From NCBI GenBank assembly GCA_038025085.1, contig CM076142.1, forward strand, positions 31,658,501-31,722,500: a DNA stretch of 64,000 nucleotides, given 5' to 3'. Source of the stretch: Tetragonia tetragonoides. Taxonomy: Eukaryota; Streptophyta; Magnoliopsida; Caryophyllales; Aizoaceae. The notes beneath the pieces are model-generated. The model was not told the DNA's origin, did not search any database, and was given only the letters and a program-made list of their open reading frames with translations. The number at the start of each line of letters is the position of its first letter. Position 1 is the first letter of the stretch. The position numbers and the translations under genes are program-made. Shown piece after piece: positions 1,647 through 63,122 of the stretch.

Positions 1647-1664
1647 ATTTTTTCTCTCTCTAAA

Positions 1665-1706
1665 ATGCTCTCTCCTCCTCCTCGACAGAGCTCGTTCAAC
1701 CATTAA
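1665..1706 (+). CDS. Upstream ORF in E1 leader (13 codons)
   Basis: ATG at 1665 in the context TAAAATGCTCTC, stop TAA at 1704-1706, 16 nt before the ORF1 ATG. The peptide is MLSPPPRQSSFNH. The same start context, length and terminal His-stop recur in E2, E5, E8 and E11, so it is probably a real leader feature that could modulate ORF1 translation. Translation is not demonstrated. Confidence 0.5.
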   Translation: MLSPPPRQSSFNH

Positions 1707-1721
1707 CATCTCTGAGTTCTA

Positions 1722-3101
1722 ATGGGGAAGAAAGACAAAGCTAAAAGAGGGAATGGGAATCAAGATGACGCTGCGGGAAAATCAGTAGCTCCACCATGTC
1801 CCACAAAAAATGTGACTCAAAGGCAACGAACCAGCAAAAACCAGGAAACCCTAGATCGAGTTATGCGTAATCTTACGGATGAACTGGAGGATTCAGAAGT
1901 TTTGACACCAGATGTACAAACAGAAACAATGCAGCAAATGGAATTAGCAAAGGAAAAAATCGATTCTTGGCTCGAGAAAATGAGGGAGACAGCAAAAAAT
2001 CAATTCTCGTCTGAGGAGGAGGATGAAGGGACAGAGCTGGCCAAACAGCAAGAAACTGCAAACATAGGTAACATCTCAGCTTGGGATAAATTTGACATAA
2101 CAAAACTGAAAAATTCTGGATTTAAACTGGATTTTATTGCACCTGCTATGCATGAGGGTAAACCGGTTGGGGACATTAACCTTTGTGACATTGAATCCGA
2201 AATCAATTACTGGAACCAAGCAATTGTTTGTTATGTAATGGGGTCTAGACCACCAATTACTGTATTTAGTGGATTTCTAAGAAGAATTTGGGCAAAAAGG
2301 GGGATGAACAAAATTGTTATGATGAAAAATGGTTTAGTTTTGGTTCGTTTTGACTCATTGGAGCAGAGGGATGCTGTAATTCAGGAAGGGGTATATCATT
2401 TTGACAACAAACCAATGATAGTTAGGCCATGGTCAGAAAATGTGGACTATGCTCATGAAGAACTGACCTCGGTTCCTATATGGGTTAAATTCCCTGGATT
2501 AAACTTGAAATATTGGAATGCTGTGGGTTTGAGCAAAATTGCAAGCCTTGTTGGAAGACCAATGATGGCAGATAAGAACACAGAACTCAAAGTAGGTATT
2601 CACTATGCCAGAGTGTTAATTGAAGTTGAAATTGGAGGGATATTCCCTGATAAGGTACACTTCAAGAATGAGAAGGGGAATATTGATGAGCAGGAGGTCG
2701 AATATGACTGGAAACCTATCATATGCAGTCACTGTAAACAGCATGGGCATGGTGAACCTGAATGCAGGAAAAAGATTGCTGCTGCAGCACCTGTGATTCA
2801 ACCAGTGCTTGTGCAGAATCAGCAAGCAAACCCTAGGACCCAACAATGGAAGATTGCAGGAAGAGGAAGAGGCAGAATGGGGAATGCAGGGAGAGGGATG
2901 AGAGCTGGAAGAGTGAACAACAGACAATGGCAGCAACAGGCCCAGACACAGAACTCTTTTGATTTACTGCAAAGTGAAGTAGTGCAGGAAGGGCAAAAGG
3001 CAAGAGAAGAAGTAGCAGAACCAGAAATACAGGAGGAATTGAAAATAGATGAGGTGCCACCACATGGAAAATCTCCTATCTTGACAAATAGTCATGGATA
3101 G
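1722..3101 (+). CDS. LINE ORF1 protein (RNA-binding, DUF4283 plus zinc knuckle), E1
   Basis: Complete 459-residue ORF1 beginning MGKKDKAKRG. The first ~115 residues are charged and probably disordered. A DUF4283-like core follows, with landmarks INYWNQAIVCYVMG, FSGFLRRIWAKRG, VYHFDNKPMIVRPW and VPIWVKFPGL. Next is a CX2CX4HX4C zinc knuckle (CSHCKQHGHGEPEC, at about 2732-2773), then an Arg/Gly-rich segment and a Gln/Glu-rich tail. In plant LINEs such proteins bind the element RNA and form the ribonucleoprotein. The start is chosen because all copies share ATGGGGAAGAAAG here. The stop TAG overlaps the ORF2 ATG (3094) by 8 nt. The frame is intact although this element's ORF2 is destroyed, which is unusual among the older copies. 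Whether it is expressed is unknown. Confidence 0.88.
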   Translation: MGKKDKAKRGNGNQDDAAGKSVAPPCPTKNVTQRQRTSKNQETLDRVMRNLTDELEDSEVLTPDVQTETMQQMELAKEKIDSWLEKMRETAKNQFSSEEEDEGTELAKQQETANIGNISAWDKFDITKLKNSGFKLDFIAPAMHEGKPVGDINLCDIESEINYWNQAIVCYVMGSRPPITVFSGFLRRIWAKRGMNKIVMMKNGLVLVRFDSLEQRDAVIQEGVYHFDNKPMIVRPWSENVDYAHEELTSVPIWVKFPGLNLKYWNAVGLSKIASLVGRPMMADKNTELKVGIHYARVLIEVEIGGIFPDKVHFKNEKGNIDEQEVEYDWKPIICSHCKQHGHGEPECRKKIAAAAPVIQPVLVQNQQANPRTQQWKIAGRGRGRMGNAGRGMRAGRVNNRQWQQQAQTQNSFDLLQSEVVQEGQKAREEVAEPEIQEELKIDEVPPHGKSPILTNSHG

Positions 3102-3510
3102 GATTATGTGGTATGAGAGAGGCCTAAATGGCCCTAATAAACAGAAAGACTTGAGTCTTTTCTGGAAAAAAAAAAAACAAAAACAATTGTGGCTTGGTAG
3201 CTCTTAGTAACTAAATAAGGCTAGGTATTGTGGAAAAATGCAAGGATTTTGTTTTCCTTAAAGATATTAATTTTGAAGAAATAGAAACTTGGGGTGAATC
3301 TGTGTATGGGCCACAGGAAATGGAGGAAAGGAAGAAACTAAGGAAGGAGCTCACAGGTTTTGCACTTTAAAATAGAGGTGCAAGGGCCTGCAGGGTTTTT
3401 GAGGGGGCAGATTGCCACTTATATCAACTGGCTATCAGGATCAGAACATAGTAGTGCAGTAGCAACAGGAAGATTACCCAGGAAGGACCAGAGATGGATA
3501 AGGAACCAGT
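3094..3510 (+). pseudogene. ORF2 remnant of E1 (endonuclease start fused to C-terminal tail)
   Basis: ATG at 3094 starts the usual ORF2 (compare RGLNGPNKQ) but is already frameshifted. An A-rich tract follows at about 3166-3180, then degenerate endonuclease sequence; GTGTATGGGCC near 3302 and GAGGAAAGGAAG near 3323 correspond to the VYGLNEKEERK region of intact copies. After about 3390 the sequence jumps to the extreme C-terminus (AGTAGCAACAGGAAG at about 3451, then AGATGGATAAGGAACC). About 3 kb, including the entire reverse transcriptase, is missing. It cannot support retrotransposition. Confidence 0.8.
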
Positions 3511-3983
3511 ATAATTCAACTAAATGTGACCTGCAGGTGATGAAAATCATGCAGGAAGTCCAGAAGGAAAAACAAGAATCAATGGTCAACTGCTCAGCAA
3601 AGAACCCAGGCTCAGCACAGCTCGAGAATCTAGCCAGCAGACAGTATCAGGAGCAGTCTTCAGAAGACCTCAGCAGAAGGAAGCAGAGTAATAGCAAGGA
3701 TGGGATTAAATTAGGAATCTGTAGCAGATTATTTCACTGTATTTTGTATTAGATGTATTTATGTTTTTGCTGTAAGTCAGGTTGTTTTTGTTTATGTTGT
3801 CTCAGAAAGGAGGAGCCACTGGATGTAATGTGGATACTCTAGTACTGCATTAGGGTTGTTTGGTTGTACAGGGATGTAGAAAAAACGAACCCCTACCTAG
3901 TAGGTGGCCTTGGATTTACATTGCCTAGGGACTGTAATCGTGTTACATTACAGTTAGTAATAATACATTTTCTGACTTGCACC
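3511..3983 (+). other. 3' UTR of E1
   Basis: CAG-rich sequence typical of this family (TCAGCAGAAGG-type phrases), then TTTGCTGTAAGTCAG, the conserved block GTAGGTGGCCTTGG, the terminal hairpin at 3931-3954 and CTGACTTGCACC before the A-run. An open frame at 3360-3752 lies across the ORF2 remnant and this UTR and is not considered a gene. Confidence 0.8.
3931..3954 (+). promoter_or_regulatory. 3' terminal stem-loop, E1
   Basis: ACTGTAAT, loop CGTGTTAC, ATTACAGT: 8 Watson-Crick pairs closed by A-U. Confidence 0.6.
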
Positions 3984-3998
3984 AAAAAAAAAAAAAAA

Positions 3999-6900: not shown

Positions 6901-7963
6901 GAAATTTTTTCGGAGGTTCTATTATGCCCCAGGGGACCCCCGCTGCACCGGGAGGGTCACCTTGATTCGCGAACTTAGATATCACCCATGTGCCCGGTTT
7001 TGGGCCAAAACATTGGCATCGCGTAAAACCACCCTTACAAGCCTATCAAGGACCCAGTAACCGATCCTGTGGGCCTCCCACGTCCCTTATGGATCTCCCG
7101 TACGATATGGGGCGAAAATATTTACGTTGAAAAGTTTGCGTCCGGGGCCCCAAAACTCGTCCCCTATAGCATTCCTAGGGCCCGGATCCCGTTTTCGCCT
7201 GAATTTTTTTCGGGGGCTCCATTATGGCCCTAGGGGACCCCCGGTACCCCGGGAGGGGCACCTTGATTCCCAATCTCAGATATCACCCATGTCGCCCATT
7301 TTTGGGCCAAAACATTGCATCGCGTAAAACCGCCCTTACAACCCAATCAGGGACCCAATAACCGACCATAGGGGCCTCTCAGGTCCCATAGGGGTCTCCT
7401 GTACGATATGGGGCAAAAATATTAACGTCGAAAACTTTGCGTCCGGGGGCCCAAAACACGTCCCCTAGAGCATTCGTAGGGTCCGGTTGCCGTTTTCGTC
7501 CGAAAATTTTTCGTGGGCTCTATTATGCCCCTAGGGGACCCTCGGTGCCCCGCGAGGGGCACCTTGATTCCCGTTCACAGATATCACCCATGTCGCCTGT
7601 TTTCGGGCCATAACATTTGCATCGCGTAAAACCACCCTTACAAGCCTACCAGGGACCCAATAACCGACCCTATGGGCCTCCCATGTCCAATAGGGGTCTC
7701 CTGTACGATATGGGGCGAAAATATTAACATCGAAAACTTTGCGTCCCGGGGCCCAAAACACGTCCCCTAGAGCATTCCCGGGGCCAAGGATGCCGTTTTC
7801 GCCCGAAAATTTTTTCGGGGGCTCTATTATGGCCCTAGGGGACCCCCGGTGCCCTGGGAGGGGCACCTTGATTCCTAAACTCAGATATCACCCATGTCGC
7901 CCGTTTTCGGGCCATAACATTTGCATCGCAACATTGGCATCGCAACTTTGGCATCGCATAGCG
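3999..7963 (+). repeat. 301-bp satellite array, block 2 (about 13 monomers)
   Basis: The longest uninterrupted satellite block. The target of E1 (about 3999) and the target of E2 (about 7918) are 3,919 bp apart, close to 13 monomers. Monomers vary by a few percent and by small indels. Both target versions occur, CCAAAACATTGGCATCG and CCATAACATTTGCATCG. Bases 7930-7963 are target-like fragments that belong to the 5' end of E2. No gene, tRNA or other mobile element was seen. Confidence 0.93.
7930..7963 (+). repeat. Target-like fragments at the 5' end of E2
   Basis: After the target duplication AACATTTGCATCGC (7916-7929) come AACATTGGCATCGC and AACTTTGGCATCGC, then ATAGCG, before the element start TTTTCTCTCTC at 7964. 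The fragments differ from the flanking duplication (TTTGCAT), so they probably arrived with the element and were not copied from this monomer. Confidence 0.75.
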
Positions 7964-7978
7964 TTTTCTCTCTCTAAA

Positions 7979-8020
7979 ATGCTCCGACCTCTCTCCTCTA
8001 CACCGTCCGTCAGCCATTGA
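7979..8020 (+). CDS. Upstream ORF in E2 leader (13 codons)
   Basis: ATG in AAAATGCTCC, stop TGA at 8018-8020. The peptide is MLRPLSSTPSVSH. It ends 16 nt before the ORF1 ATG, like its counterparts. Confidence 0.5.
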   Translation: MLRPLSSTPSVSH

Positions 8021-8036
8021 CGCACTGTGAGTACCT

Positions 8037-9401
8037 ATGGGGAAGAAAGAGAAGGCAAAGCGAGGGGGAGACAAGCAAGATGACAATGGAGGAAATTCAG
8101 CACCACCAGGTCCGACGAAAACAGCGATTCAGAGACAAAGTCCAAGCATGACCCGAGATAACCTAGATCGGGTTGTGCGTAACCTAACTGACGAATTGGA
8201 GGCACCGGAGGTCATGACACCTGAAACTGTTCAACAGATGGAAATTGCGAGAGAAAAGATCAATTCGTGGTTCTCAAAAATGAAGGAAAAGGCACGAACA
8301 CTCTCTTCGTCTGAGGATGAAGATGACGGCCCAGAACTGACCAAACAGCAAGAGACAGCTACTACAAGTAATATCTCAGCCTGGGATAAATTTGATATAT
8401 CCAAATTATAGAATTCTGGATTTAAATTGGATTTTGTTGAGCCAACTATGCATGAAGGGAAACCTGTAGGGGAAATTAACTACATGGATATAGAATCTGA
8501 AATCAATTACTGGAACAAAGCTGTTGTTTGCTATATTATGGGATCAAAACCACCAATTAATGTGTTAAGTGGGTACTTAAGAAGAATCTAGGCAAATCGT
8601 GGGATGAACAAAATAGCCATGATGAAGAATGGCCTGGTGTTGGTCAGATTTGACTCCATTGAGCAAAGAGATGCTGTAATTCAAGAGGGAGTATACCATT
8701 TTGATAACAAACCTATGATAGTGAGGCAGTGGTCTGAAAATGTGGATTATGCACAGGAAGAATTGAGCTCAGTGCCTATTTGGGTCAAATTTCCTGGTCT
8801 TAATGTGAAATATTGGAATGCTAAGGGGCTGAGCAAGATTGCGAGCCTTGTAGGAAGGCCAATGATGGCAGACAAAAACACAGAGCTCAAAGTAGGGATC
8901 CAGTTTGCTAGAGTTTTGATTGAGGTGGCAGTGGGATCTGAATACCCTAGCAAGGTGCATTACAAGAATGAAAAAGGCAATATTGTGGAACAGGAAGTGG
9001 AATATGACTGGAAGCCTATTCTTTGCAAACACTGCAAGAAATATGGACATACTGAGGAAGAATGCAGAAAGAAAGCAACTGCAGCCCCTGTGCCACAAAC
9101 ATTGCCTGCACAGAAGCCACAAACCTTGCCTCCTAGGTCTCAACACTGGCAGATTGCAAGAAGAGGGAGAGGAAGAGCCTAGAATGCAGGGAGAGGAACA
9201 AGAGCAGGTAGAGGCCAGTATAGGAAAAAACAGCCTACAACTGGCTCTCAGACGCAGAACAGTTTTGAAATCCTGCAAAATGAAGAAGAAGCACATGAGG
9301 CACAGACAGATACACTGGAGCCAGAACAACAGAAAGTTCAGAATGCAGTTGAGGTGCCATTACATGGTAAGTCTCCTACCTTGACTGTTGGTCATGGATA
9401 G
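8037..9401 (+). pseudogene. LINE ORF1, E2 (three in-frame stops)
   Basis: It starts MGKKEKAKRG and would be about 454 residues. In-frame stops are TAG 8409-8411 (AAG in E11), TAG 8589-8591 (TGG elsewhere, in RRIW) and TAG 9180-9182 (TGG in E11). Otherwise the frame is continuous, with the DUF4283-like core and the zinc knuckle CKHCKKYGHTEEEC around 9026-9067. The natural TAG at 9399-9401 overlaps the ORF2 ATG at 9394. It is closely related to ORF1 of E11 (both have DDNGGNSAPPGPTKT). It is dead as a single protein. Confidence 0.9.
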
Positions 9402-12400
9402 GATACTAGTATGGAATGTTAGAGGCCTAAATGGCCCAAATAAACAAAGGGATGTTGCCCTTTTTTGTAAAGAAAATAAATGTGGAATGGTGGCTTTTTT
9501 AGAAACTAAAATCAGATTAGCTAACCTTGGAAAATACAAAAATAGCTTCATGCCAGGCTGGGAATCTTATAGCAATCACAATGAGCACAGTTTAGGTAGA
9601 ATCTGGTTAAGATGGATACCAAATTATTTTCATGTGGATATTTTATTCTCTTCTGTGCAAATGGTTATATGCAAAGTGGTAAATATTGTGGAAAAAAAAG
9701 AATTTGTGGCTAGTTTTGTCTATGGCCTAAATGAAAAAGAAGAAAGGAAAATCCTATGGAAACACCTGTCAGATTTTGCTAGCAATTGTAATAAACCATA
9801 GTTTGTTGGAGGAGACTTCAATAATGTAATGCTAGCTGAAAATAGGGAAGGAGGAAATCCAGTTACATTCTCTGAAACCCAGGAGTTTAAAGAGTGTATT
9901 GAGCAGAGCTTCCTCACTGAACTGAGATGGTCAGGGTGCAAGTTTACATGGAATAATAGGCATGAAAGAGGGGGGAGAGTATACTCTAAAATTGATTGGG
10001 CCTTTGCAAACAGCCTTTGGTTCCAGGAATTTGATCAATTTGATCTTAAATTCCACCCAGAGGGAGTTTCAGACCATTCCCCAATCTGTTTGGCCCTTCA
10101 GACAGAACCTGAGAAAACAAAGACACCCTTCAAATACTTCAACATGTGGAGCCTCCACTCTGAATTCCATGCTATGGTGCAGCAAGCATGGAACTTCAGA
10201 ACACAAGGCACAAAAATGTTCAGAGTTTACAGGAAACTGAAAAAGGTGAGACAAGTGCTGAAGAGATTAAACAGAAATGAATTTAGGGACATTCTAGCAC
10301 AAGCAGACTTAGCAAGAGCAACCATGACTCAAGCCCAGATTGCTGCTAATAATGAGCCCTTAAATGAGGAAACACAGCACAAGGAACTACAGGCTAGGAA
10401 AAAATACAATGAGCTGAACATGGCTGCAGAAAAGTTCTTACAGCAGAAAAGTAAGGCAAAGTGGGTGCAGCTGGGGGATGGAAACACACAGTTCTTCCAT
10501 GCAGTTATGAAGCAAAGAAGACACAAGAACAGAGTGCACTCAATCAGAACACAGCAGGGGACTCTACTGGAAGATAAACAGATGGTTATGGAGGAATTTG
10601 TGAAATTTTACAAAGAAATGTTGGGAGTCTCAGGGGATAGAGCAACTACAGCAGAAGCCAGTTTCTTCTCAGCAGGACACAAACTGGATATACATCAACA
10701 AATGGACCTCATTGCTCCAGTCAGTGCCACTGAGGTGAAAACAGCAATGTTTGAGATAGACAGCAACAAAAGCCCGGGCCCAGATGGATTTGGTTCAGGC
10801 TTCTTCAAGGCAGCATGGCATATTGTAGGGCATGAAGTGACTGAAGCTATCATTGACTTCTTTGAGTCATCTAGAATGCTTAAAGAAGTGAATGCTACAA
10901 ACCTATGCCTTGTGCAGAAGATACAAAACCCAGAGAAGGCATCTGATTTCAGACCCATAGCATGCTGCAACACAATCTACAAGTGCATATCCAAGATCAT
11001 GTGTGGTAGACTGGCAAAAGTTCTCCCAATGCTTGTTTCAGAGAACCAGGGAGCCTTTGTGGCTCAGAGATCAATTGTGAACAACATCATGATATGTCAG
11101 GACCTTATTAAGCACTACAACAGGAAACAGTCCTCTCCTAGATGCTTGATGAAGATAGACCTGAGGAAAGCATATGACACAATACATTGGGGATTTGTGA
11201 AGGAAATGCTACAAGGGTATGGGTTTCCTGCAAAATTCAGTGGATGGCTAATTGAATGCATCCAAACTGCAAGATTCAGCATCAATCTGAATGGGGAAAC
11301 ACATGGATACTTTACTGCAAAACGTGGCATTAGACAGGGTGATCCAATCTCTGCACTAATTTTTGTATTAGTTATGGAATACTTGTCTAGAACACTGAAA
11401 TTAGCCTGTATGGATAGAAGCTTCAGCTGGCACCCCATGTGCAAAGACCTTGGCCTGAGTCATCTATGTTTTGCTGATGACCTAATGTGCTTCTGCAAAG
11501 CTTCCCCAGAACCTGTGAGCATCATTATGAACAGCATAAACCACTTCTCACAAGCCACTGGCCAATTTGCAAACAAGGAAAAATCAAACATTTATGTTGC
11601 AGGGGTTAATGAACAAATGAATAATGAATTGCTGCATATCTCAGGATTTAGAGAGGGTACCCTACCCATGAAATATCTGGGTGTCCCTCTATCCCCCTCA
11701 AAATGGAGCAAAATTGATTGTGAGTGCTTGGTGGACAAAATGACTAGGAAACTGCAGATTTGGGCCTCCAGGAACCTCTCTTATGCAGGAAGAGTAAAAC
11801 TAATTAATTCTGTATTATTTTCCATACATGTATACTGGTCTAGCATATTCATTATGCCTACTGGAGTACTGAAACAGGTGGAGCAAAAATGCAGATTTTT
11901 CTTATTGGGGACAACTGAACAGGAACATAAGACAAGCTTGGTGGCATGGGACATGGTGTGCAGACCAAGGAAAAATGGTGGACTAAATGTGAAAAACTGC
12001 AAATGGTTCAACATAGCTCTAAATGGTAAGCATATCTGGGACCTGGCCACAAAGAAAGACACACTGTGGGTAAGATGGATCAATGGAGTGTACCTAAAAG
12101 GTGTAAACCTCTGGAACTATGCTCCAGTCTGGGGTTCTAGCTGGTACTGGAACAAGCTGAATAAGACCAAAAGCCACTTTCAGGCACAGTACACTACAAG
12201 GGGAGCATGGAAGCTTGAAACTGATGGCCTATATAATGCTGCAAGTGGATACAGAATGTTGCAAGGAAGTATGCCAAAATACAGACATGCAGATTTAATC
12301 TGGGGGAAATTATCCATGCCTAGGCAAAGTTTCTGCCTTTGGCTAGCCCAAAAGGGAAGACTGTTGACCAAAGATAGGCTGAAGAGAATGGGATTCTTGA

Positions 12401-13460: not shown

Positions 13461-13542
13461 TTTTTGCAAATTGTAATGTTTACAGAGATGGTGAGGATTA
13501 ATTTTTGTAAATTGTAATGTGTACAGAGATGGTGAACCACTG
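13461..13542 (+). repeat. 41-bp tandem duplication in E2 3' UTR
   Basis: TTTTTGCAAATTGTAATG at 13461 recurs as TTTTTGTAAATTGTAATG at 13502, each followed by TACAGAGATGGTG. The same 41-bp period occurs in E6 (32486/32527) and E8 (43471/43512). Confidence 0.8.
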
Positions 13543-13645
13543 CCTGTAGTGAGGAGCACCAGATTGAAGGGTTGTAAGGTAGTAGAGGGATGTAGCAAAA
13601 AGGAACCCTACCTAGTAGGTGGCCTTCGATCTCCATTGCTTAAGG

Positions 13646-13669: not shown

Positions 13670-13708
13670 GAGCAATAATACAATTTCTGACTTGCACCAA
13701 AAAAAAAA

Positions 13709-15578: not shown

Positions 15579-15579
15579 A

Positions 15580-50031: not shown

Positions 50032-50041
50032 AAAAAAAAAA

Positions 50042-51043: not shown

Positions 51044-52447
51044 ATGGGGAAGAAAGAGAAATCAAAGCGAGGGATTGGAAACGATGATGAAAGTGCGGAG
51101 AAATCGACAGCTCCACCTGTTCCCACGAAGAATGTGACACAAAGAAAACGTTCGACCCAAACCCATGAAAACCTAGGTCGGGTTATGAGAAATTTAACGG
51201 ATGAATTGGAGGACCCAGAAATTATGTCACCGGAAATGCACTCTGAAACTCTGCAGGAAATGGAATTAGCGCAAGAAAAAATTAATTCTTGGTTGTCGAA
51301 GATGAAGGAAAGGGCTAGAAATCAAGCCTCCGATGAAGAACAGGTCGAAACTGCGACACAAGAAAAACAGCAACAATTTGCAGAGTCAGGTAAAACATCT
51401 GCTTGGGAAAAATTCGACATTACAAAACTTAAAAATGCTGGATTTAAACTTGATTTTATAGCTCCTGTTATGCTTGATGGGAAACCAGTAGGTGAAATTA
51501 ACCTCAAGGACATAGAATCTGAAATTAATTATTGGAATCAATCTGTTGTCTGCTATGTTATGGGGTCAAGACCACCTATCAGTGTGCTTAGTGGATTCCT
51601 TAGGAGAATTTGGTCGAAGAGGGGAATGAATAAAATAGCTATGATGAAAAATGGGCTAGTTATTGTTCGATTTGATTCAATGGAACAAAGAAATGCAGTG
51701 CTAGAGGAAGGGGTTTACCATTTTGACAATAAACCAATGATTGTTAGACCTTGGGCTGAAAATATAGACTATGCCCATGAGGAACTCACATCTGTTCCTA
51801 TTTGGGTTAAATTCCCTGGTCTAAATGTCAAGTATTGGAATGCAGTAGGGCTGAGTAAAATGGCAAGTTTGGTAGGCAGACCAATGATGGCTGACAGAAA
51901 CACTGAATTGAAAGTAGGGATTCAATATGCCAGAGTCTTGATTGAAGTGGAGATAGGGGGGAAATATCCTGATAAGGTACACTACAAGAATGAAAGAGGG
52001 AACATAGTGGAACAAGAAGTTGAGTATGACTGGAAACCTGTACTGTGCAACCACTGCAAACAACATGGACACAGTGAGACTGAATGCAGGAAAAAGAAAG
52101 CAACACAGGAGCCTATGACACAGACAATGCCTGTGCACCAAATACCTGCACAGCAAGCAAAGCCAAGAACACAGCAATGGCAGAATGCAGGGAGAGGTAG
52201 AGGCAGGATGGGCAATGCAGGGAGAGGGACAAGGGCTGGAAGAGGTTTCTACAGACAAATTCAACAGACTAACAATGCAGCAACCCAATCACAGAATCCA
52301 TTTGACATACTCCAAGATGTAGATGGGGATCAGGAGGGAAGACAGGCACAAGGGCAAGTAACAGTGCCAGGAATGCAGGAAGAACAAGTATCAGAGGAAG
52401 TACCAGTACATGGTAAGACTCCTATCTTGACTGATAGTCATGGATAG
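51044..52447 (+). CDS. LINE ORF1 protein, E10
   Basis: 467 residues, same protein as E9 ORF1: DUF4283-like core, zinc knuckle CNHCKQHGHSETEC, Arg/Gly-rich segment, Gln-rich tail. It is also open upstream into satellite from 50882, giving a possible 54-residue extension that I do not accept without transcript evidence. Confidence 0.9.
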   Translation: MGKKEKSKRGIGNDDESAEKSTAPPVPTKNVTQRKRSTQTHENLGRVMRNLTDELEDPEIMSPEMHSETLQEMELAQEKINSWLSKMKERARNQASDEEQVETATQEKQQQFAESGKTSAWEKFDITKLKNAGFKLDFIAPVMLDGKPVGEINLKDIESEINYWNQSVVCYVMGSRPPISVLSGFLRRIWSKRGMNKIAMMKNGLVIVRFDSMEQRNAVLEEGVYHFDNKPMIVRPWAENIDYAHEELTSVPIWVKFPGLNVKYWNAVGLSKMASLVGRPMMADRNTELKVGIQYARVLIEVEIGGKYPDKVHYKNERGNIVEQEVEYDWKPVLCNHCKQHGHSETECRKKKATQEPMTQTMPVHQIPAQQAKPRTQQWQNAGRGRGRMGNAGRGTRAGRGFYRQIQQTNNAATQSQNPFDILQDVDGDQEGRQAQGQVTVPGMQEEQVSEEVPVHGKTPILTDSHG

Positions 52448-55400
52448 GATGCTTATTTGGAATGTTAGAGGCCTGAATGGCCCAAACAAGCAGAGGGATG
52501 TGGCCCTCTACTGTAAAAAAAATAAATGTGGATTGGTAGCTTTTCTTGAAACAAAAATTAGATTAGTTAACCTGGAAAAATGCAAAAATAGTTTCATGCC
52601 AGAGTGGGAATCATTTAGTAACCACAATGAACACAGACTTGGTAGAATTTGGATTAGGTGGTTACCTAATTATTTTCATGTTGACATTATTTTTTCCTCT
52701 GTGCAAATGGTCATATGTAATGTGAGAAACAAGGAAGGGAAAAAAGATTTTGTGGTGAGTTTTGTATATGGAATGAATGAGAAAGAAGATAGGAAGCAAC
52801 TGTGGAGGGATATGAATGATTTTGCTACTACCTGCAACAAACCATGGATTGTTGGAGGGGATTTCAACAATGTTTTGCTTCATGAGAACAGACAAGGTGG
52901 CTTGCCAGTCACCTATGCTGAAATTCAGGATTTTAAATCCTGTATAGATAGTTGTTTCTTACATGAAATGAGTTGGTCTGGATGCCCTTATACCTGGAAC
53001 AATAGGCATGAAGAGAGGGGAAGGGTATACTCTAAGATAGATTGGGTCTTTGTCAACAGTTTATGGATGCAGGAGTTTGACCAGTGCACCCTACAGTTCA
53101 TGCCAGAGGATGTATCTGATCATACCCCTATCTACATAACCCTGCACAAAAACCTGAATATTAATAAAACCCCCTTTAAATTCTTTAATATGTGGTGCCT
53201 TCACTCTGAATTCCTAGCCTTGGTGCAGCAAGCATGGAATTGTAGAACACAAGGTACAAAAATGTTTAAGGTATACCAAAAACTGAAAAATGTGAAACAT
53301 GCATTGAAAAAGCTCAACAGAGCTGAGTTTAGTGATATTTTAGCTCAGACTGAGATTGCTAGATCAGTAATGAATCAAGCACAAGAAGATGCAAACAAAG
53401 AGCCACTGAATGAATTACTGCAGAAGGGAGAAATTCAGGCTAGGAGAAGGTTCAACGACATAAACCTGGCAGCTGAGACATTCCTACAACAAAAGAGCAA
53501 GGCTAGGTGGGTGCAACTGGGAGATGGAAATAATCAGTTTTTCCATGCAATTATGAAACAGAGAAGGCAACAAAACAGATTGCACTCCATACAGACACAA
53601 GAGGGCATCTTATTGGAGGAAAAAGACTTGATCATTGAAGAATTTGTGGGGTTTTACAGGAAGATGCTGGGGGTATCAGGAACCAGAGGCACTACAGCAG
53701 AGGAGAGCTTCTTTTCAGCAGGGAAAAAACTAAGTATGCAACAACAGATGAGCATCAGTGCACCAGTGACTGCTGAGGAAGTACAGAGAGCTATGTTTGA
53801 CATTGATAGGAATAAAAGCCCAGGCCCTGATGGCTTTGGCTCAGGTTTCTTCAAGGAAGCATGGAGTATTGTTGGGGATGAAGTGACCAATGCAATTATA
53901 GATTTTTTTGAAGCCTCTAAAATGCTTAAAGAGGTGAATGCAACTAACCTTTGTCTTGTGCAGAAAATAGGGAACCCTGAAAAAGCCTCTGATTTCAGAC
54001 CTATTGCATGCTGCAACACCATATACAAATGCATTTCAAAGATCCTATGTGGAAGAATGGCAACAGTGCTACCTGACCTCATCTCTGTGAACCAGGGTGC
54101 CTTTGTGGCACAAAGGTCAATTGTGCACAACATCATGATATGTCAGGACCTAATCAAGCACTACAACAGGAAGCAATCCTCGCCTAGATGCTTGATGAAG
54201 ATAGACCTGAGGAAAGCTTATGATACAATACACTGGAGCTTTATCAAGGAGATGCTGCAAGGGTATGGATTCCCAATTAAGTTTATTGGCTGGATACTGG
54301 AATGTATACAAACTGCAAGTTTCAGCATCAACATAAATGGTGGAGTACATGGATTCTTTACTGCTCAACGTGGCATCAGGCAAGGAGATCCACTGTCCCC
54401 ATTGATATTTGTGCTGGTCATGGAGTATTTCTCAAGGATTCTGAAAATTGCATGCATGGACAAAAGCTTCAATTGGCACCCCATGTGCAAGGAACTAGCT
54501 TTGAGCCACTTGTGTTTTGCTGATGATCTGATGTGTTTCTGCAAAGCTACCTCTGAATCTGTAAGTATAATGATGAATTGCATAAATTACTTTGCACAAG
54601 CTACTGGGCTGCATGCTAATAAGGAGAAATCTAACCTATACATAGCTGGTGTGGATGAGGAAACAAAAAGAGAATTGTTAGCATTATCTGGATTTAGGGA
54701 GGGTACATTACCTATGAAGTACTTGGGAGTCCCACTTTCTCCATCTAAATGGAGCAAAATTGACTGTGAGTGCTTGGTTGATAAAATGACCAAAAAATTG
54801 CAGATATGGGCTTCTAGGAACCTATCATATGCAGGAAGAACCCAACTCATAAATTCTGTGCTTTTCTCTATACATGTGTACTGGTCTAGCATTTTCATAA
54901 TGCCTGCAGGGGTACTTAAAAGTATAGAACAAAAATGCAGATATTTCTTATGGGGATCCACTGAGGAGAAGCACAAAACCAACCTGGTGGCATGGGATAT
55001 AGTATGCAGACCTAGGAAAAATGGGGGCATAAACATAAAAAATTGCAAATGGTTTAATGTGGCTCTGAATGGAAAACATATCTGGGATTTAGCCACAAAA
55101 AAGGATACTTTGTGGGTAAAATGGATAAATGGGATATATCTGAAAGGGACAAATCTCTGGGATTATGCACCAGTGTGGGGTGCCAGCTGGTACTGGACCA
55201 AACTCAACAAAATCAAGAGCTATTTCCAGGAGCATTACACAGTTAGAGGGGTCTGGAAAAGAGATGCAGATGGTTGCTATACAGCTGCAAGGGGATACAG
55301 CACTTTGGTGGGAGATATGCCTAAGCAGAGACATGCCAACCTGATTTGGGGAAGGGTAACAATGCCAAGACACAGCTTCTGCCTATGGTTGGCTCAGCAG

Positions 55401-55832
55401 GGAAGATTGTTAACTAAGGACAGAATGCAGAACATGGGCTTCCTGAATGGGGATGATGTATGCAACCTGTGCAAGGCAAAACCAGAAGACCACAATCACC
55501 TTTTCTTCACATGTAACATGGCTGCAGATGTTTTACAACAAGTGAGAAGCTGGCTACAGATTACATCAAGAACAAACACAATTCAGAGCTTGCTGAACTG
55601 GATAAGTAGGCAGAAATGCTCAAATTTCAGGAAGGAAGTATATGCAGCTGGGCTAGCAGCAGCTGTATACTGGCTGTGGAGAAGCAGAAATATTAAACAT
55701 TTTGTGGGAAACACTCTTTCTGTGATGCAGATCATGCAGCAGATTCAGCAACCAGTGAGGATCAGAATACAACAGTGCAGCAGACTGAGAAAAATCAACA
55801 GCAAAGACAAAAAATGGGTAGAGAGAATTTAA
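52440..55832 (+). CDS. LINE ORF2 polyprotein, E10
   Basis: 1,130 residues, intact; the endonuclease, RT (motif A KIDLRKAYD, RGIRQGDP, FADD) and zf-RVT motifs are unchanged. Private or lineage-distinct residues relative to E8 and E9: Met in CGRMATVLP (A at 54057), Leu in GDPLSPL (C at 54393), Ser in CKATSESVS (T at 54552), Glu in GVDEETKRE, and Arg in VCRPRKNGG, which is the residue seen in the other lineages. None touches a catalytic residue. Confidence 0.94.
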   Translation: MDRMLIWNVRGLNGPNKQRDVALYCKKNKCGLVAFLETKIRLVNLEKCKNSFMPEWESFSNHNEHRLGRIWIRWLPNYFHVDIIFSSVQMVICNVRNKEGKKDFVVSFVYGMNEKEDRKQLWRDMNDFATTCNKPWIVGGDFNNVLLHENRQGGLPVTYAEIQDFKSCIDSCFLHEMSWSGCPYTWNNRHEERGRVYSKIDWVFVNSLWMQEFDQCTLQFMPEDVSDHTPIYITLHKNLNINKTPFKFFNMWCLHSEFLALVQQAWNCRTQGTKMFKVYQKLKNVKHALKKLNRAEFSDILAQTEIARSVMNQAQEDANKEPLNELLQKGEIQARRRFNDINLAAETFLQQKSKARWVQLGDGNNQFFHAIMKQRRQQNRLHSIQTQEGILLEEKDLIIEEFVGFYRKMLGVSGTRGTTAEESFFSAGKKLSMQQQMSISAPVTAEEVQRAMFDIDRNKSPGPDGFGSGFFKEAWSIVGDEVTNAIIDFFEASKMLKEVNATNLCLVQKIGNPEKASDFRPIACCNTIYKCISKILCGRMATVLPDLISVNQGAFVAQRSIVHNIMICQDLIKHYNRKQSSPRCLMKIDLRKAYDTIHWSFIKEMLQGYGFPIKFIGWILECIQTASFSININGGVHGFFTAQRGIRQGDPLSPLIFVLVMEYFSRILKIACMDKSFNWHPMCKELALSHLCFADDLMCFCKATSESVSIMMNCINYFAQATGLHANKEKSNLYIAGVDEETKRELLALSGFREGTLPMKYLGVPLSPSKWSKIDCECLVDKMTKKLQIWASRNLSYAGRTQLINSVLFSIHVYWSSIFIMPAGVLKSIEQKCRYFLWGSTEEKHKTNLVAWDIVCRPRKNGGINIKNCKWFNVALNGKHIWDLATKKDTLWVKWINGIYLKGTNLWDYAPVWGASWYWTKLNKIKSYFQEHYTVRGVWKRDADGCYTAARGYSTLVGDMPKQRHANLIWGRVTMPRHSFCLWLAQQGRLLTKDRMQNMGFLNGDDVCNLCKAKPEDHNHLFFTCNMAADVLQQVRSWLQITSRTNTIQSLLNWISRQKCSNFRKEVYAAGLAAAVYWLWRSRNIKHFVGNTLSVMQIMQQIQQPVRIRIQQCSRLRKINSKDKKWVERI

Positions 55833-56354
55833 GTGCTCTTGTACCACAGTAGACTCAGGCAAAAAGACAGGACTGCACCAGATGAGCAACCAGCAGAGGC
55901 AGCAGGTCATCAGTGCATGTGTTAGGCATCAAGTCAGCAAACAGCAGGAGGAAGACAGCAAGGTTATGCAGCAGGTTACAGCAGGGGAATCAAAACCAGT
56001 GGGCAGAAGCTAGACTCAACAGCATGTCAGAATCAGAATACATCAACTCCTGGAAGTTTTGGTTGTAATATTTTTAGATATAAATGTTTTTGTATTTTGC
56101 TGTAAGTCAGAAATAATTTTTGCAAATTGTAATGTTTACAGAGATGGTGGGAAACAATTTTTGCAAATTGTAATGTTTACAGAGAGGGTGAACCATTGTC
56201 TGTAGTGAGTTGCACCAGATTGAAGGGATGTAAGGTAGTAGAGGGATGTAGCAAAAAGGAACCCTACCTAGTAGGTGGCCTTGGATCTACATTGCCTAAG
56301 GACTGTAATCTTGTTACATTACAGAGAGCAATAATACAATTTCTGACTTGCACC
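55833..56354 (+). other. 3' UTR of E10
   Basis: As in E8, with the 41-bp duplication at 56117/56158. The A-run that follows is longer (16 against 10). Confidence 0.8.
56303..56324 (+). promoter_or_regulatory. 3' terminal stem-loop, E10
   Basis: CTGTAAT, loop CTTGTTAC, ATTACAG, same as E8. Confidence 0.6.
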
Positions 56355-56370
56355 AAAAAAAAAAAAAAAA

Positions 56371-57591
56371 CATTGGCATCGCGTAAAACCGCCCTTACAG
56401 GCCTATCAGGGACCCAATAACCGACCCTAGGGGCCTCCCATGTCCCATAAGGGTCTCATGTACGATATGGGGCGAAAATATTAACGTCAAAAACTTTGCG
56501 TCCGGGGGCACAAAACACGTCACCTAGAGCATTCCCCGGGCCCGGTTGCCGTTTTCGCCCGAAATTTTTTCGAGGGTTCTATTATGTCCCTAGTGGACCC
56601 CCGGTGCCGCGGGAGGGGCACCTTGATTCTCGAACTCAGATATCACCCATGTCGCCCTTTTTTGGGCCAAAACATTGGCATCGAGTAAAACCGCCCTTAC
56701 AAGCCTATCAGGGACCCAATAACCGACCCTAGGGGCCTCCCATGCCCATAAGGGTCTCATGTACGATATGGGGCGAAAATATTAACGTCAAAAACTTTGC
56801 GTCCGGGGGCCCAAAACACGTCCCCTAGAGCATTCCCCGGGCCCGGTTGCCGTTTTCGCCCGAAATTTTTTCGAGGGCTCTATTATGTCCCTAGGGGACC
56901 CCCGGTGCCCCGGGAGGGGCACCTTGATTCCCGAACTCAGATATCACCCATGTCGCCCGTTTTTGGGCCAAAACATTGGCATCGCGTAAAACCCCCCTTA
57001 CAAGCCTATCAAGGACCCAATAACCGACCCTAGGGGCCTTCCATGTCCTATAGGGGTCTCCCATACGATATGGAGCAAAAATATTAACGTCGAAAACATT
57101 CCGTCCGGGGGCCCAAAACACGTCCCCTACAGCTTTCCCGGGGCCAAGGTTGTCGTTTTCACCCGAAATTTTTTCGGGGGCTCTATTATGGCCCTAGGGG
57201 ACCCCCGTTGCCCTGGGAGGGTCACCTTGATTCCCGAACTCAAATATCACCCATGTCACCCGTTTTTGGGCCAAAACATTGGTATCGCGTAAAACCGCCT
57301 TTACAAGCCTATCAGGGACCCAATAACCAACCCTTGGGGCCTCCCATGTCCCATAGGGGTCTCCTGTACGATATGGGGCGAAAATATTAACGTCGAAAAC
57401 TTTGCGTCCGGTGGCCCAAAACACGTCCCCTAGAGCATTCCCAGGGCCCGGTTGCCGTTTTCGCCTGAAATTGTTTCGGGGGCTCTATTATGGCCCTAGG
57501 GGACGCCCGGTGCCCCGGGAGGGGCACCTTGATTCCCGAACTCAGATATCACCCATGTCGCCCGTTTTCGGGCCATAACATTTGCATCGCG
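56371..57591 (+). repeat. 301-bp satellite array, block 11 (4 monomers)
   Basis: Targets of E10 and E11 are 1,208 bp apart, four monomers. The first two monomers share rare changes (CCATAAGGGTCTCATG, ATTATGTCCCTAG) and look like a recent local duplication. Confidence 0.93.
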
Positions 57592-57624
57592 ATTGGCATC
57601 GCAACATTGGCATCGCGATTGGCA
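57592..57624 (+). repeat. Target-like fragments at the 5' end of E11
   Basis: ATTGGCATCGC, AACATTGGCATCGCG and ATTGGCA follow the target duplication AACATTTGCATCGCG (57577-57591). These fragments carry TTGGCAT while the local target carries TTTGCAT, so they were not copied from it. Confidence 0.75.
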
Positions 57625-57641
57625 TTTCTGTCTCTAAAAAA

Positions 57642-57683
57642 ATGCTCTCACCTCTCTCCTCTACACCGCCCGTCCGCCATTGA
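57642..57683 (+). CDS. Upstream ORF in E11 leader (13 codons)
   Basis: ATG in AAAATGCTCTC, stop TGA at 57681-57683. The peptide is MLSPLSSTPPVRH. It ends 17 nt before the ORF1 ATG. Confidence 0.5.
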   Translation: MLSPLSSTPPVRH

Positions 57684-57700
57684 CGCAACTGTGAGTTCTA

Positions 57701-59081
57701 ATGGGGAAGAAAGATAAGGCAAAACGAGGGGGAGAAAAGCAAGATGACAATGGAGGAAACTCAGCACCACCAGGTCCGACGAAAACTGTGAATCAGAGAC
57801 AAAGTACAAGCATGAACCGAGACAACCTACATCGGGTTGTGCGCAACCTTACTGATGAATTGGAGGCACCGGAGGTCATGACTCCTGAAGCACAAACAGA
57901 AATAGTCCAACAGATGGAAATTGCAAGAGAGAAGATCAATTCTTGGCTCTCAAAAATGAAGGAAAAGGCAAGAACACTCTCCTCGTCTGACGATGAAGAT
58001 GAAGGCCCAGAACAAATCAAACAGCAAGAGACAACAACTGCAGGTAATACCTCAGCTTGGGATAAATTTGACATATCCAAATTAAAGAATTCTGGATTTA
58101 AATTGGATTTTGTTGCGCCAACAATGCATGAAGGAAAACCTGTAGGGGAAATTAGCTACATGGACATAGAATCTGAAATCAATTACTGGAACAAAGCTGT
58201 TGTTTGCTATATTATGGGGTCAAAACCACCAATTAATGTGTTAAGTGGCTACTTAAGAACAATATGGGCAAAACGTGGGATGAACAAAATAGCCATGATG
58301 AAAAATGGATTGGTGTTGGTTAGGTTTGATTCCTTAGAGCAAAGGGATGCTGTAATTCAAGAGGGAGTCTACCATTTTGACAACAAACCCATGATAGTGA
58401 GGGCATGGTCTGAAAATGTGGATTATGCACAAGAAGAATTGACCTCGGTGCCTATTTGGGTCAAATTTCCTGGTCTTAATGTGAAATATTGGAATGCTAA
58501 GGGACTGAGCAAGATTGCCAGCTTAGTAGGAAGGCCAATGATGGCAGACAAAAACACAGAGCTCAAAGTAGGGATCCAATTTGCTAGAGTATTGATTGAG
58601 GTGGAAGTTGGAGCTGAATACCCCTAATAAGGTACAGTACAAGAATGAAAAAGGCAATATTGTGGAACAGGAAGTGGAATATGACTGGAAGCCTATTCTT
58701 TGCAACTACTGCAAGCATTATGGGCATAAGGAAGGTGAATGCAGAAAGAAAGTAACTGCAGCTCCTGTGCCACAAACACTACCTGCACAGCCACCAGCTA
58801 TGCCTCCTAGGGCTCAACACTGGCAGAATGCAGGAAGAGGGAGAGGAAGAGCTTGGAATGCAGGGAAAGGAAGGAGAGCAGGTAGAGGCCAGTATAGGCA
58901 AGTTCAACAGCCTAAAACTGGCACACAGATGCAAAACAGTTTTGAAATTCTGCAAAATGAAGAAGAAACACAGCAGGCACAGACAGAAGAAACACTGGAG
59001 CCAGAACCGCAAAAGAATCAGAATGCAGTTGAGGTGCCATTACATGGTAAGTCTCCTATCTTGACTGTTGGTCATGGATAG
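57701..59081 (+). pseudogene. LINE ORF1, E11 (one frameshift)
   Basis: Starts MGKKDKAKRG. It is open for 308 codons through the DUF4283-like core (INYWNKAVVCYIMG, MIVRAWSENVDYA). Then one extra C in CCCC at about 58621-58624 (E2 has CCC) shifts the frame. The remainder is open in the next frame with the zinc knuckle CNYCKHYGHKEGEC (about 58702-58743) and the Arg/Gly-rich tail. The TAG at 59079-59081 overlaps the ORF2 ATG at 59074. Confidence 0.9.
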
Positions 59082-62000
59082 GATACTAGTATGGAATGTT
59101 AGAGGCCTAAATGGCCCAAATAAACAAAGGAATGTAGCCCTTTTTTGTAAAGAAAATAAATGTGGAATGGTGGCTTTCCTAGAAACCAAAATCAGATTAG
59201 CTAACCTTGAAAAATACAAAAATAGATTCATACCAGGCTGGGAATCTTATAGCAATCACAATGAGCACAATTTAGGCAGAATCTGGTTAAGATGGATACC
59301 AAATTGTTTTCATGTGGATATTTTATTCTCTTCTGTGCAAATGATCATATGCAAAGTGGTTAATATTGTGGAAAAAAAGGAATTTGTGGCTAGCTTTGTT
59401 TATGGCCTAAATGAAAAAGAGGAAAGGAGAACATTTTGGAAAGACATGTCAGATTTTGCAAGCAATTGCAATAAACCATGGTTTGTTAGGGGAGACTTCA
59501 ATAATGTAATGCTAGCTGAAAATAGGATAGGAGGAATTCCAGTTACATTCTCTGAAATTCAGGATTTTAAAGAGTGTATTGAGCAATGTTTCCTCACTGA
59601 AATGGGTTGGTCAGGGTGCCAGTTTACAACGAATAATAGGCATGAAAGGGGTGGGAGAGTCTATTCTAAAATTGATTGGGCCTTTGCAAACAGCTTCTGG
59701 TTTCAGGAATTTGATCAATTTGATCTGAAATTCCACCCAGAGGGAGTTTCTGATCACTCCCCAATTTGCCTGGCTCTTCAGAGTGAACCTGCAAAAACAA
59801 AGATCCCCTTTAAATACTTCAACATGTGGAGCCTCCACTCTGATTTCCATGCTAAGGTTCAGCAAGCATGGAATTTCAAAACACAAGGCACAAAAATGTT
59901 CAGAGTGTACAGGAAACTGAAAAAGGTGAGAACAGTGCTGAAGATGTTAAACAGAAATGAATTTAGGGACATTTTAGCACAAGCAAACATTGCTAGAGCT
60001 ACCATGACTCAAGCTCAGATTGATGCTAACAAGGAGCCCTTAAATGAGGAAGCACAACATAAGGAATTACAGGCCAGGAAAAAATACAATGAGGTGAATA
60101 TGGCTGCAGAGAATTTCTTACAGCAGAAAAGTAAGGAAAATTGGGTTTAGCTGGGGGATGGAAACACACATTTCTTCCATACAGTCATGAAGCAAAGAAG
60201 ACACAAGAATAGAGTGCACTCAATCAGAACACAGTAGGGGACTCTACTGGATGATCAACAGATGGTTATGGAGGAATTTGTGAGATTCTACAAAGAAATG
60301 CTGGGAGTCTCAGGGGATAGAGCAACTACATCAGAAGACAGTTTCTTCTCAACAGGACACAAACTGAATATACATCAACAGATGAACCTCATTGCTCCAG
60401 TCAGTGCCATTGAGGTGAAAACAGCAATGTTTGAAATAGATTGCAACAAAAGCCCGGGCCCTGATGGATTTGGATCAGGGTTCTTCAAGGCAGCTTGGCA
60501 TATTGTAGGGCATGAAGTGACTGAAGCTATCATTGACTTCTTTGAGTCATCTAGAATGCTTAAAGAAGTGAATGCCACAAACCTATGTCTTGTGCAGAAG
60601 ATACAAAACCCAGAGAAGGCATCTGATTTCAGACCCATAGCATGCTGTAATACAATATACAAGTGCATATCCAAGATCATGTGTGGAAGACTGGCAAAAG
60701 TACTCCCAGTGCTTATTTCAGAGAACCAGGGAGCCTTTGTGGCTCAGAGATCAATTGTGAATAACATCATGATATGTCAGGACCTTATTAAGCACTACAA
60801 CAGGAAACAATCATCTCCTAGATGCTTGATGAAGATAGACCTGAGGAAAGCATATGACACAATACATTGGGGATTTGTGAAGGAAATGCTGCAAGGGTAT
60901 GGTTTCCCTGCAGAATTCAGTGGATGGCTAATTGGATGCATCCAAACTGCAAGCTTTAGCATCAATCTGAATGGGGAAACACATGGATACTTTACTGCAA
61001 AACGTGGCATTAGACAGGATGATCCAATCTTTCCACTAATTTTTGTATTAGTTATGGAATACCTGTCTAGAACACTGAAAATAGCCTGTATGGATAGAAG
61101 CTTCAGCTGGCACCCCATGTGCAAAGACCTTGGATTGAGTCATCTCTGCTTTGCTAATGACTTAATGTGTTTCTACAAAGCTACCCCTGAATCTGTGAGC
61201 ACTATGATGAACAGCATAAACCACTTCTCACAAGCCACTGGTCTGTATGCAAACAAGGAAAAATCAAATATTTATGTAGCAGGGGTAAATGAACAAGTGA
61301 AAAATGAACTGTTGCACATCTCAGGATTTAAAGAGGGAACCTTGCCCATGAAATACCTGGGTGTCCCACTGTCCCCTTCAAAATGGAGCAAAATAGATTG
61401 TGAGTGTTTGGTGGATAAAATGACTAGGAAATTGCAGATTTGGGCCTCCAGGAATCTCTCTTATGCAGGAAGGGTACAATTAATTAATTCTGTATTATTT
61501 TCCATACATGTATACTGGTCAAGCATCTTCATTATGCCTGCTAGGGTACTGAAAAGTGTGGAGCAAAAATGCAGATTTTTCTTATGGGGGACAACTGAAC
61601 AGAAACACAAGACAAGCTTGGTGGCATGGGACATGGTATGCAGACCAAGGAAAAATGGTGGACTAAATGTGAAAAATTGCAAATGGTTCAACATAGCTCT
61701 AAATGGTAAGCATATCTGGGATCTAGCCACAAAGAAAGACACACTGTGGGTAAAATGGATCAATGGAGTATATCTGAAAGGTGTAAACCTTTGGAACTAT
61801 GCTCCAGTCTGGGGTTCTAGCTGGTACTGGAACAAGCTGAACAAGATCAAAAGCTATTTTCAGGCACAATACACTACTTCGGGTGCATGGAAGCTTGAAA
61901 CTGATGGCTTATATTCTGCTGCAAGTGGCTACAGAATGTTGCAAGGAAATATGCCAAAATACAGACATGCAGATTTAATCTGGGGGAAGTTATCCATGCC

Positions 62001-62469
62001 TAGACAAAGCTTCTACCTCTGGCTAGCACAAAAGGGAAGATTATTAACTAAAGATAGGCTGCAGAGAATGGGCTTTTTGAATGGTGATGAGATATGCTAC
62101 ATGTGTAAGCTGAAACCAGAGGACCACAATCATCTGTTCTTTAACTGCAAAGTGTCAACAGCAGTCCTGGATCAGCTAAGGGATTGGCTGAAAATTTCAG
62201 CAAAAGCAAAAACAATTCAGGGGATGCTCAACTGGATAAGCAGGCAAAAGTGCTCGAGAATAAGGAAGGAAGTATTTGCATCAGGGCTAGCAGCAGCAGT
62301 TTATTGGGTCTGGAGATGCAGGAATACCCATTTTGCTGGTGAAGGCAGTATACCAGTATCACAGATCATGCAACAGATTCAGCAAGTTGTCAGAATCAGA
62401 ATCCAACACTCCAGCAACAACAGGAGGAAGATCTCCAGCAGGGATAAGAGATGGTTAGATGAGATATAG
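59074..62469 (+). pseudogene. LINE ORF2, E11 (two stops, FADD changed to FAND)
   Basis: ATG at 59074. TAG 60148-60150 and TAG 60235-60237 both replace CAG (Gln). Motif A is intact (KIDLRKAYD), but motif B reads RQDDP (Gly to Asp, GAT at 61018) and motif C reads FAND (AAT at 61156), losing the first catalytic Asp. In the endonuclease, GGDFN has become RGDFN and TWNN is TTNN. The zf-RVT motif CYMCKLKPEDHNHLFFNC is kept. Several changes are C:G to T:A. The element is catalytically dead. Natural stop TAG at 62467-62469. Confidence 0.92.
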
Positions 62470-63110
62470 GCAGAAGGGAGCTGGACCAGGTCATATAGCA
62501 GAGCAAACAGAAAGCCTGCATCAGAATGAAATTATCAGATTTCATCAGCTGGTCAGCAGAGATCCCAGAAGTGATGCAAGAAGTGAGATCATGTGCAGAA
62601 CTATCAGCAGAAGGCCAGTACAGAAAGGCAGAAGCAGAACTCATCAGGGTCTCAGCAGGGAATCAAGCAATTCTGCAAGGCATCAGAACATGTGCAGGAA
62701 AATAGGCAGGAGATTTCAGAAGGGAAGCAGAAGCAGATTGCAGAAACTAGGCTGTGAACAAGGCAGCAGGATCCAGCAGGTAACCAGTAGCAGGCTGCTG
62801 GAGAAAGACAGAGCAAGGAATGAAACAGAAATCAAAAGAATTGGAAAGCTAGAAGAAGTTATAATTTCTAGCTTATTATGGTTTTGTACTTTGCTGTAAG
62901 TCAGAAAAGATTTTGTGTAATTTGTCATGTTTACAGAGATGGTGAACCACTGTCTGTAGTGAGTTGCACCAGATTGAAGGTTTGTAAGGTAGTAAAGGGA
63001 TGCAGAAAAAAGGAACCCTACCTAGTAGGTGGCCTTGGATTTGCATTGCCTTAGGGCTGTAATCTTGTTACATTACAGTGAGCAATAATAATAATTTCTG
63101 AATTGCACCC
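62470..63110 (+). other. 3' UTR of E11
   Basis: CAG-rich noncoding sequence (TCTCAGCAGGGAATCAAG near 62650), TTTGCTGTAAGTCAG, a single TTTTGTGTAATTTG...TTTACAGAGATGG unit, the CCTACCTAGTAGG block and the hairpin. The open frame 62459-62899 inside it is not considered a gene. Confidence 0.75.
63056..63079 (+). promoter_or_regulatory. 3' terminal stem-loop, E11
   Basis: GCTGTAAT, loop CTTGTTAC, ATTACAGT: seven Watson-Crick pairs plus closing G-U. Confidence 0.55.
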
Positions 63111-63122
63111 AAAAAAAAAAAA

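Follow-up and report, generated by a model that had tools for sequence, protein, structure and literature searches.

Strictly site-specific long interspersed nuclear elements (LINEs) have been studied mainly in animals. In plants, the closest described system is L1-CS of Cuscuta europaea, which prefers two neighbouring sites (TTCTA and TTTCAA) of the 389-bp satellite CUS-TR24, with 91% of the elements within 10 kb of this satellite, described by the authors as recently amplified (Vondrak et al. 2021, PMC8091179). Outside plants, the R1 elements of arthropod 28S ribosomal DNA (rDNA) show a 14-bp target duplication in most cases (Stage and Eickbush 2009, PMC2718515). Here we analyze a window of 64,000 nucleotides from Tetragonia tetragonoides (contig CM076142.1), in which eleven copies (E1 to E11) of a poly(A)-tailed, L1-type LINE family lie in a satellite array. 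The results make it highly probable that this family inserts at one site of the 302-bp satellite monomer, apparently through recognition by an endonuclease of the apurinic/apyrimidinic (AP) type. The initial annotation of the window had thought a satellite-living plant L1 LINE unusual, but the kind was already published in 2021 (PMC8091179); the present case is a different element that uses a single site, not two, of a different satellite. A search of the literature, covering open-licence papers in PubMed Central, yielded, among the entries listed, no plant LINE besides L1-CS that inserts at an exact position of a satellite.

Insertion site

A single satellite array, in one orientation throughout, fills the window up to approximately position 63,300, its 12 blocks alternating with the 11 LINE copies, and all 66 satellite pieces found by BLAST lie on the + strand. 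The copies, 1.9 to 5.8 kb in size, likewise share one direction in the array (11/11). The monomer had been annotated as 301 bp; monomers of 301 and 302 bp do occur, as in the left block (1–1645, + strand), but the consensus is 302 bp.

The 3' junction is invariant across the copies and the 5' junction is loose. Past the A-run, which is 5–17 long, the first base other than A corresponds to monomer phase 5 in 11/11 copies (with one unaligned base in E3), which bears out the initial proposal of a single phase for all 3' ends. The 5' junction falls at phase 15–19 in nine of the eleven, the exceptions being E3 (phase 67) and E4 (phase 285). Target duplications, all at the same box of the monomer, are present in the eight copies for which they had been claimed (E1, E2, E5, E6, E7, E8, E10 and E11), and compared over 11 non-A bases they show one mismatch in total, located in E10. 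When 5' and 3' ends are re-paired, leaving aside E3 and E4, which have no duplication, and E9, 144 of 40,320 arrangements are as good or better (p = 0.0036). The rejoined flanks of the same eight copies align to the satellite gap-free within 60 bp of the join; beyond that distance, deletions of 36 bp (E1) and 20 bp (E7) are found.

L1-like T-rich sites amount to eight per monomer over both strands, five of them in the orientation used, and insertions are found at only one. The probability that ten independent insertions (see below) all fall at one of the eight T-rich sites is 7e-9, and 9e-26 for one of the 604 position/strand slots. The best reading is, as initially suggested, a plant LINE of the L1 type whose insertion is sequence-specific.

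The boxes of the satellite are of two types, TTGGCAT and ATAACATTTGCAT. TTTGCAT occurs in 6 of 40 empty monomers (a hand count, two of the 40 being duplicates in satellite block S2, 50042–50994), and the GACATC and CGAG variants also recur elsewhere; the flank variants originally described as private to single copies are real, but are shared polymorphisms. The TTTG-type box received 5/10 independent insertions, as judged by the 3' flank, vs 6/40 empty monomers (p = 0.03, post hoc), and a preference for it, picked after the data had been seen, is only a hint.

Independence of the insertions

Excluding E9, the window holds ten independent insertions, because in pairs without E9 the flanks resemble each other only as much as ordinary monomers do: their first flanking monomers are 83–92% identical on the 3' side and 85–94% on the 5' side, which is the ordinary-monomer range. 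The most alike 3' flanks are those of E1 and E2 (92%; 93% on the 5' side), yet the 3' ends of these LINEs are only 85% identical, which means that the two do not descend from a single insertion. E10 (50995–56370, + strand; nearly full-length, ORFs, i.e. open reading frames, intact) is 99.85% identical to E8, differing at 8 of 5373 aligned bases, and must hence reflect a recent insertion; it has a longer A-run and different flanks (89.0% identical to those of E8 on the 3' side, 87.5% on the 5' side), so that E8 and E10 are separate insertions.

E8, E9 and E10 are pairwise 99.85–99.93% identical over their shared length. E9 (44672–50041, + strand, ORFs intact) appears to be the product of an exchange that joined a 5' part from E10 to a 3' part from E8, and not an independent insertion, because it agrees with E10 at three 5' single-nucleotide polymorphisms (SNPs) and further along with E8 at five SNPs, in the length of the A-run and in the 3' flank, and because the satellite blocks preceding E9 and E10, namely S1 (43719–44671, + strand) and S2, are 99.9% identical, with one base different, the unit having apparently been duplicated along with E9. 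The two flanks of E9 mismatch each other. An assembly loop, in which the assembler passed twice through the near-identical E8 and E10, would yield the same pattern, but it is less likely, since one private SNP in E9 and the one-base difference between S1 and S2 favour a real duplication. E9 was left out of the counts of independent insertions, and of the coding-window and 3'-end alignments. Where LINEs share one site, they may favour unequal crossing-over within the satellite.

As a side observation, the segment 38346–57112 reads as a tandem triplication with a unit of 6323 bp, its middle LINE being the putative exchange product of its neighbours. A 37-bp tandem repeat lies at 44418–44496 and 50741–50819, in the satellite blocks between E8 and E9 and between E9 and E10.

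Coding capacity, classification and age

ORF1 and ORF2 are intact in E8, E9 and E10. In E8 (38294–43718, + strand, full-length, both flanks carrying CATTGGCATCGAG) ORF1 spans 38398–39801 (467 aa) and ORF2 39794–43186 (1130 aa), both on the + strand, with an overlap of 8 nt by coordinates. ORF1 contains a DUF4283 domain and, by eye, a CCHC motif, while ORF2 comprises an AP-like endonuclease, a reverse transcriptase (RT) and a zf-RVT domain. Of the Pfam assignments, that of the endonuclease profile is just below its cut-off. Domain and structure results were obtained on the E9 frames (P0001 and P0002; the tree row W_E8 is the E9 frame), which are near-identical to those of E8, the endonuclease piece being letter-identical. 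Since this piece alone has a weak sequence match in the PDB (E 0.39), a structure model was used for it; the predicted structure has a clear AP-type fold, and the TRAS1 endonuclease is among its fold matches. The best PDB sequence match of ORF2 is human LINE-1 ORF2.

Among the 120 homologues listed of 238, all named species are flowering plants, and the top match shows 42% identity over 89%. ORF1 is closer to Solanaceae proteins (up to 56%, over partial length) than to Cuscuta ones among the matches listed. By its ORF domains, its closest proteins, which are plant LINEs, its poly(A) tail and its target duplications the element is a plant L1-clade LINE. No Rfam family at gathering score and no tRNA are found in the window, which rules out a target in an RNA gene; the 28S rDNA or other RNA-gene target that goes with R1-clade membership is hence missing from it. 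The four LINE rows of the window group together in the RT tree as a separate clade (support 99/100), to which none of the named rows is closely related; the input consisted of 44 of the 120 listed homologues plus seven window pieces, of which 47 rows were kept, pieces shorter than 230 aa (one homologue and E3, E5 and E7 of the window) being dropped. The endonuclease alignment comprised 29 of the 120 listed homologues and the window piece.

Comparison of ORF2 of E8 with that of E2, E3, E5, E6 or E11 gives a synonymous divergence (dS) of 1.1–2.6 and a ratio of nonsynonymous to synonymous divergence (dN/dS) of 0.06–0.09. These are simple Nei-Gojobori values, the larger dS ones being close to saturation, and the clock may run faster through errors in LINE replication. 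Because lineages this far apart use the same site with dN/dS this low, the site preference is old and was maintained by working elements through lineage divergence. Pairs within lineages show lower dS (0.22–0.61) and higher ORF2 dN/dS (0.13–0.24), as expected for a comparison of decayed copies.

Other copies, all on the + strand, are less complete. E1 (1646–3998) has a near-complete 5' end, an intact ORF1 (1716–3101, stop to stop) and the target duplication AACATTTGCATCGC, and has lost the greater part of ORF2; it may be a derivative with ORF1 only, or have undergone a plain deletion. E3 (15579–20011), E4 (20295–22181), E6 (30168–32733) and E7 (33047–36788) are 5'-truncated; E3 and E4 keep the canonical 3' junction, E6 has a target duplication, and both flanks of E7 carry CATTGACATCG.

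Box ladders at the 5' ends

Four copies (E2, E5, E8 and E11) carry one to three additional boxes, complete or partial and differing from the current target, between the current target duplication and the CTCTCT leader. In E2 (7930–13708, + strand; full-length, with broken reading frames and one 995-codon ORF2 frame left), the 5' end at 7916–7957 shows the current duplication AACATTTGCATCGC (7916–7929) and then two apparently older boxes, AACATTGGCATCGC and AACTTTGGCATCGC. In E11 (57592–63122, + strand; full-length, frames broken), the current duplication AACATTTGCATCGCG is followed, within 57577–57627, by three such boxes of TTGGCAT type, complete or partial. E5 (23102–28671, + strand; full-length, frames broken) has one partial box, TTGGCATCG, at 23102–23110, and E8 two at about 38296–38326. 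Tandem-repeat detection also marks 7916–7958 in E2 and 57,577–57,625 in E11. Within the initial 60 bp of the four copies the word TTGGCATC is found seven times, as against not once in 47,372 bp of LINE interior.

Among the 49 boxes scanned in the window a second box occurs at these four LINE 5' ends only. Bare endonuclease scars were discarded as a source of the ladders, none being present in the empty monomers among the 49. The present target of E2 and E11 is a TTTGCAT box and their ladder boxes are TTGGCAT, so the present target did not serve as the source of the ladder. The ladders look like target duplications inherited from earlier insertions at the same site, which is the simplest account and has a precedent in the upstream target sequence reported at the 5' end of some R1 elements (PMC2718515). 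In that case they would show directly that the ancestors of the four copies had landed in this box too.

3' ends and possible exchange between lineages

The 3' end is conserved among the copies aligned (E9 and E10 excluded). Over the last 290 bp E2, E6 and E8 are 93–94% identical, vs approximately 62–84% in their coding parts (300-column windows); the coding parts of E2 and E11 are 89% identical. A 41-bp duplication in the 3' untranslated region (UTR) is seen at 13458–13535 (E2), 32479–32559 (E6), 43464–43544 (E8), 49787–49867 (E9) and 56110–56190 (E10). The unit is single in E4, E5, E7 and E11, and E1 and E3 have no match; a loose scan also gave weak extra matches in E6 and E8–E10. Because the duplication is common to copies whose coding parts fall in different lineages, it points to 3'-end exchange between lineages, to which constraint on the 3' UTR may contribute.

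Alternative explanations

One alternative is an ordinary L1 that loosely prefers T-rich sites, in a satellite that by chance offers one good site. On its bottom strand the common box has the sequence TGTTTT/GG, which is within the usual L1 style, and in the description of L1-CS the sites TTCTA and TTTCAA are likened to the L1 site (PMC8091179). Nevertheless, one out of eight T-rich sites is used, half of the independent insertions are in the TTTG variant, and in E1, E2 and E11, where the upstream bases are visible, this box reads TGTTAT/GG with no T4 run, all of which makes such an element improbable here. Targeting by chromatin, i.e. centromeric or heterochromatic tethering, is slightly less probable still: centromeric accumulation combined with a weak site motif is known for poplar Celine, and a sunflower LINE also resides in centromeres (PMC11288735, PMC4628103), and tethering would account for the array, but not for one base and one strand in 11/11 copies. 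It may act on top of sequence recognition. The least credible alternative, with a very small chance, is that one insertion and its satellite were multiplied by segmental duplication or unequal crossing-over, the shared phase reflecting a single event. This case, foreseen in the initial annotation, is true for E9, as its SNPs and the S1/S2 identity indicate, but is refuted for the rest, given the ordinary identity of the flanking monomers, bodies that for many LINE pairs are merely ~69–76% identical, and A-run lengths, 5' ends and target variants that vary among most copies.

For the ladders, the competing explanation is template switching: instead of being inherited, the boxes would be acquired at insertion from other satellite DNA or RNA. 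R1 and R2 5' junctions often bear extra target-derived or untemplated bases (PMC2718515), and the sister copies E2 and E11 carry different ladders. However, the ladder pieces are confined to the box (~9–17 bp), and empty monomers have no second box; we regard template switching as unlikely, though with a far better chance than the alternatives for the site itself. Several observations weigh against recognition of one sequence or against inherited ladders. After its ladder box E5 has CGCCCGTTTTC, whose 11 bases are identical to the satellite just upstream of the box, so its leader may include other satellite sequence and is readable as template switching; the shorter word TTGGCAT is found twice in LINE interiors. 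Neither E3 nor E4 shows a target duplication of the usual sort: the flanks of E3 overlap by 63 bp and differ at several bases, so that this copy either retains a long duplication of some age or has been rearranged, and E4 has lost ~17–21 bp of target on the 5' side. Conservation of the target box does not exceed that of the remaining monomer, phase 9–19 ranking 281st of 302 windows (23 monomers in the test, 24 in the alignment, whose first eight positions are fixed by monomer selection), and hence selection keeping the box gives no sign in this test. A predicted 3' hairpin shows two-sided change in 0/26 pairs, thus no covariation support. Finally, the site statistics rest on one 64-kb array, the only one seen. 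Sequence recognition still accounts best for the junctions. Its fullest version, an obligate, single-nucleotide-specific satellite resident that kept its target through near-saturation lineage splits and whose 5' ladder records earlier landing sites, is put forward tentatively, as possible but somewhat doubtful.

Proposed mechanism

In the mechanism that we propose, the ORF2 endonuclease would nick the bottom strand at one place, approximately 5'-(C/A)AATGTT/(T/A)TGGCC-3', the exact bond being hidden by the A-run. The T-ending 3' end would then pair with the LINE poly(A) and prime reverse transcription, giving the invariant 3' junction; the junction is observed, and the chemistry is assumed from known LINEs. 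A top-strand cut ~11–19 bp downstream would produce the box-sized target duplication, and this would be the looser step, from which E3 and E4 are seen to depart. Full-length transcripts probably begin within the 5' target duplication of the element itself, or slightly before it, and old boxes would then accumulate at the 5' end as the ladders suggest. Copies within one array would finally recombine, following the pattern observed in E9 and perhaps that of the shared 3' UTRs.

Array end and database searches

At about 63,300 the satellite breaks off mid-monomer, and a diverged minisatellite (~32-bp units, GGTCATGGTGCTGCATCG...) fills 63301–64000; its GCATCG motifs bear a superficial likeness to the target box. 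The satellite had no match in plasmids, and the exact box with its flanks gave 0 matches in viral and prokaryote collections, which says little about plants.

Comparison with known systems

The family resembles those animal elements that are confined to ribosomal genes or telomeres. TRAS1 and SART1, the telomere-targeting LINEs of insects, belong to the R1 clade and share with the window family the AP-type endonuclease, the tandem-repeat home and the poly(A) tail, their target being the telomeric repeat. R1 also occupies tandem arrays, with upstream target sequence at some 5' ends, and R1 and R2 combine rigid bottom-strand with flexible top-strand cleavage, which is here read from the junctions; R1 differs in clade and in its rRNA-gene target, and its tandem copies one target duplication apart, found in several Drosophila species, have no equivalent in the window (PMC2718515). 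The vertebrate Tx1-clade elements are L1-related and target-specific as well, in an animal lineage (PMC3747384, PMC4640811).

Among plant LINEs, poplar Celine and the sunflower centromeric LINE are likewise concentrated in a repeat-rich chromosomal niche (PMC11288735, PMC4628103). Celine shares DUF4283 in ORF1, but has a weak site motif, unique target duplications and 52/58 full-length copies inside other transposable elements (PMC11288735).

Since some copies have intact ORFs, endonuclease specificity is directly testable and comparable across lineages. If the ladders are inherited, full-length copies would be a readable record of earlier insertions, from which transposition history could be reconstructed; if many copies lie outside the array, the claim drops from strict specificity to strong preference. 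The system also bears on the joint persistence of a satellite and its parasite, satellites being usually thought fast in turnover.

L1-CS remains the nearest parallel, as a plant L1 LINE with a satellite target, heterogeneous copies at the same target sites, later segmental duplications, and 5' and 3' ends offset by a target duplication of ~13–16 bp (PMC8091179). The ORF1 of the window family is merely 29–32% identical to Cuscuta proteins among the matches listed, and its box ladder has no counterpart in the available text on L1-CS (PMC8091179). L1-CS uses two adjacent sites of a 389-bp, young satellite, whereas here one exact site of a 302-bp satellite is common to lineages far apart at silent sites.
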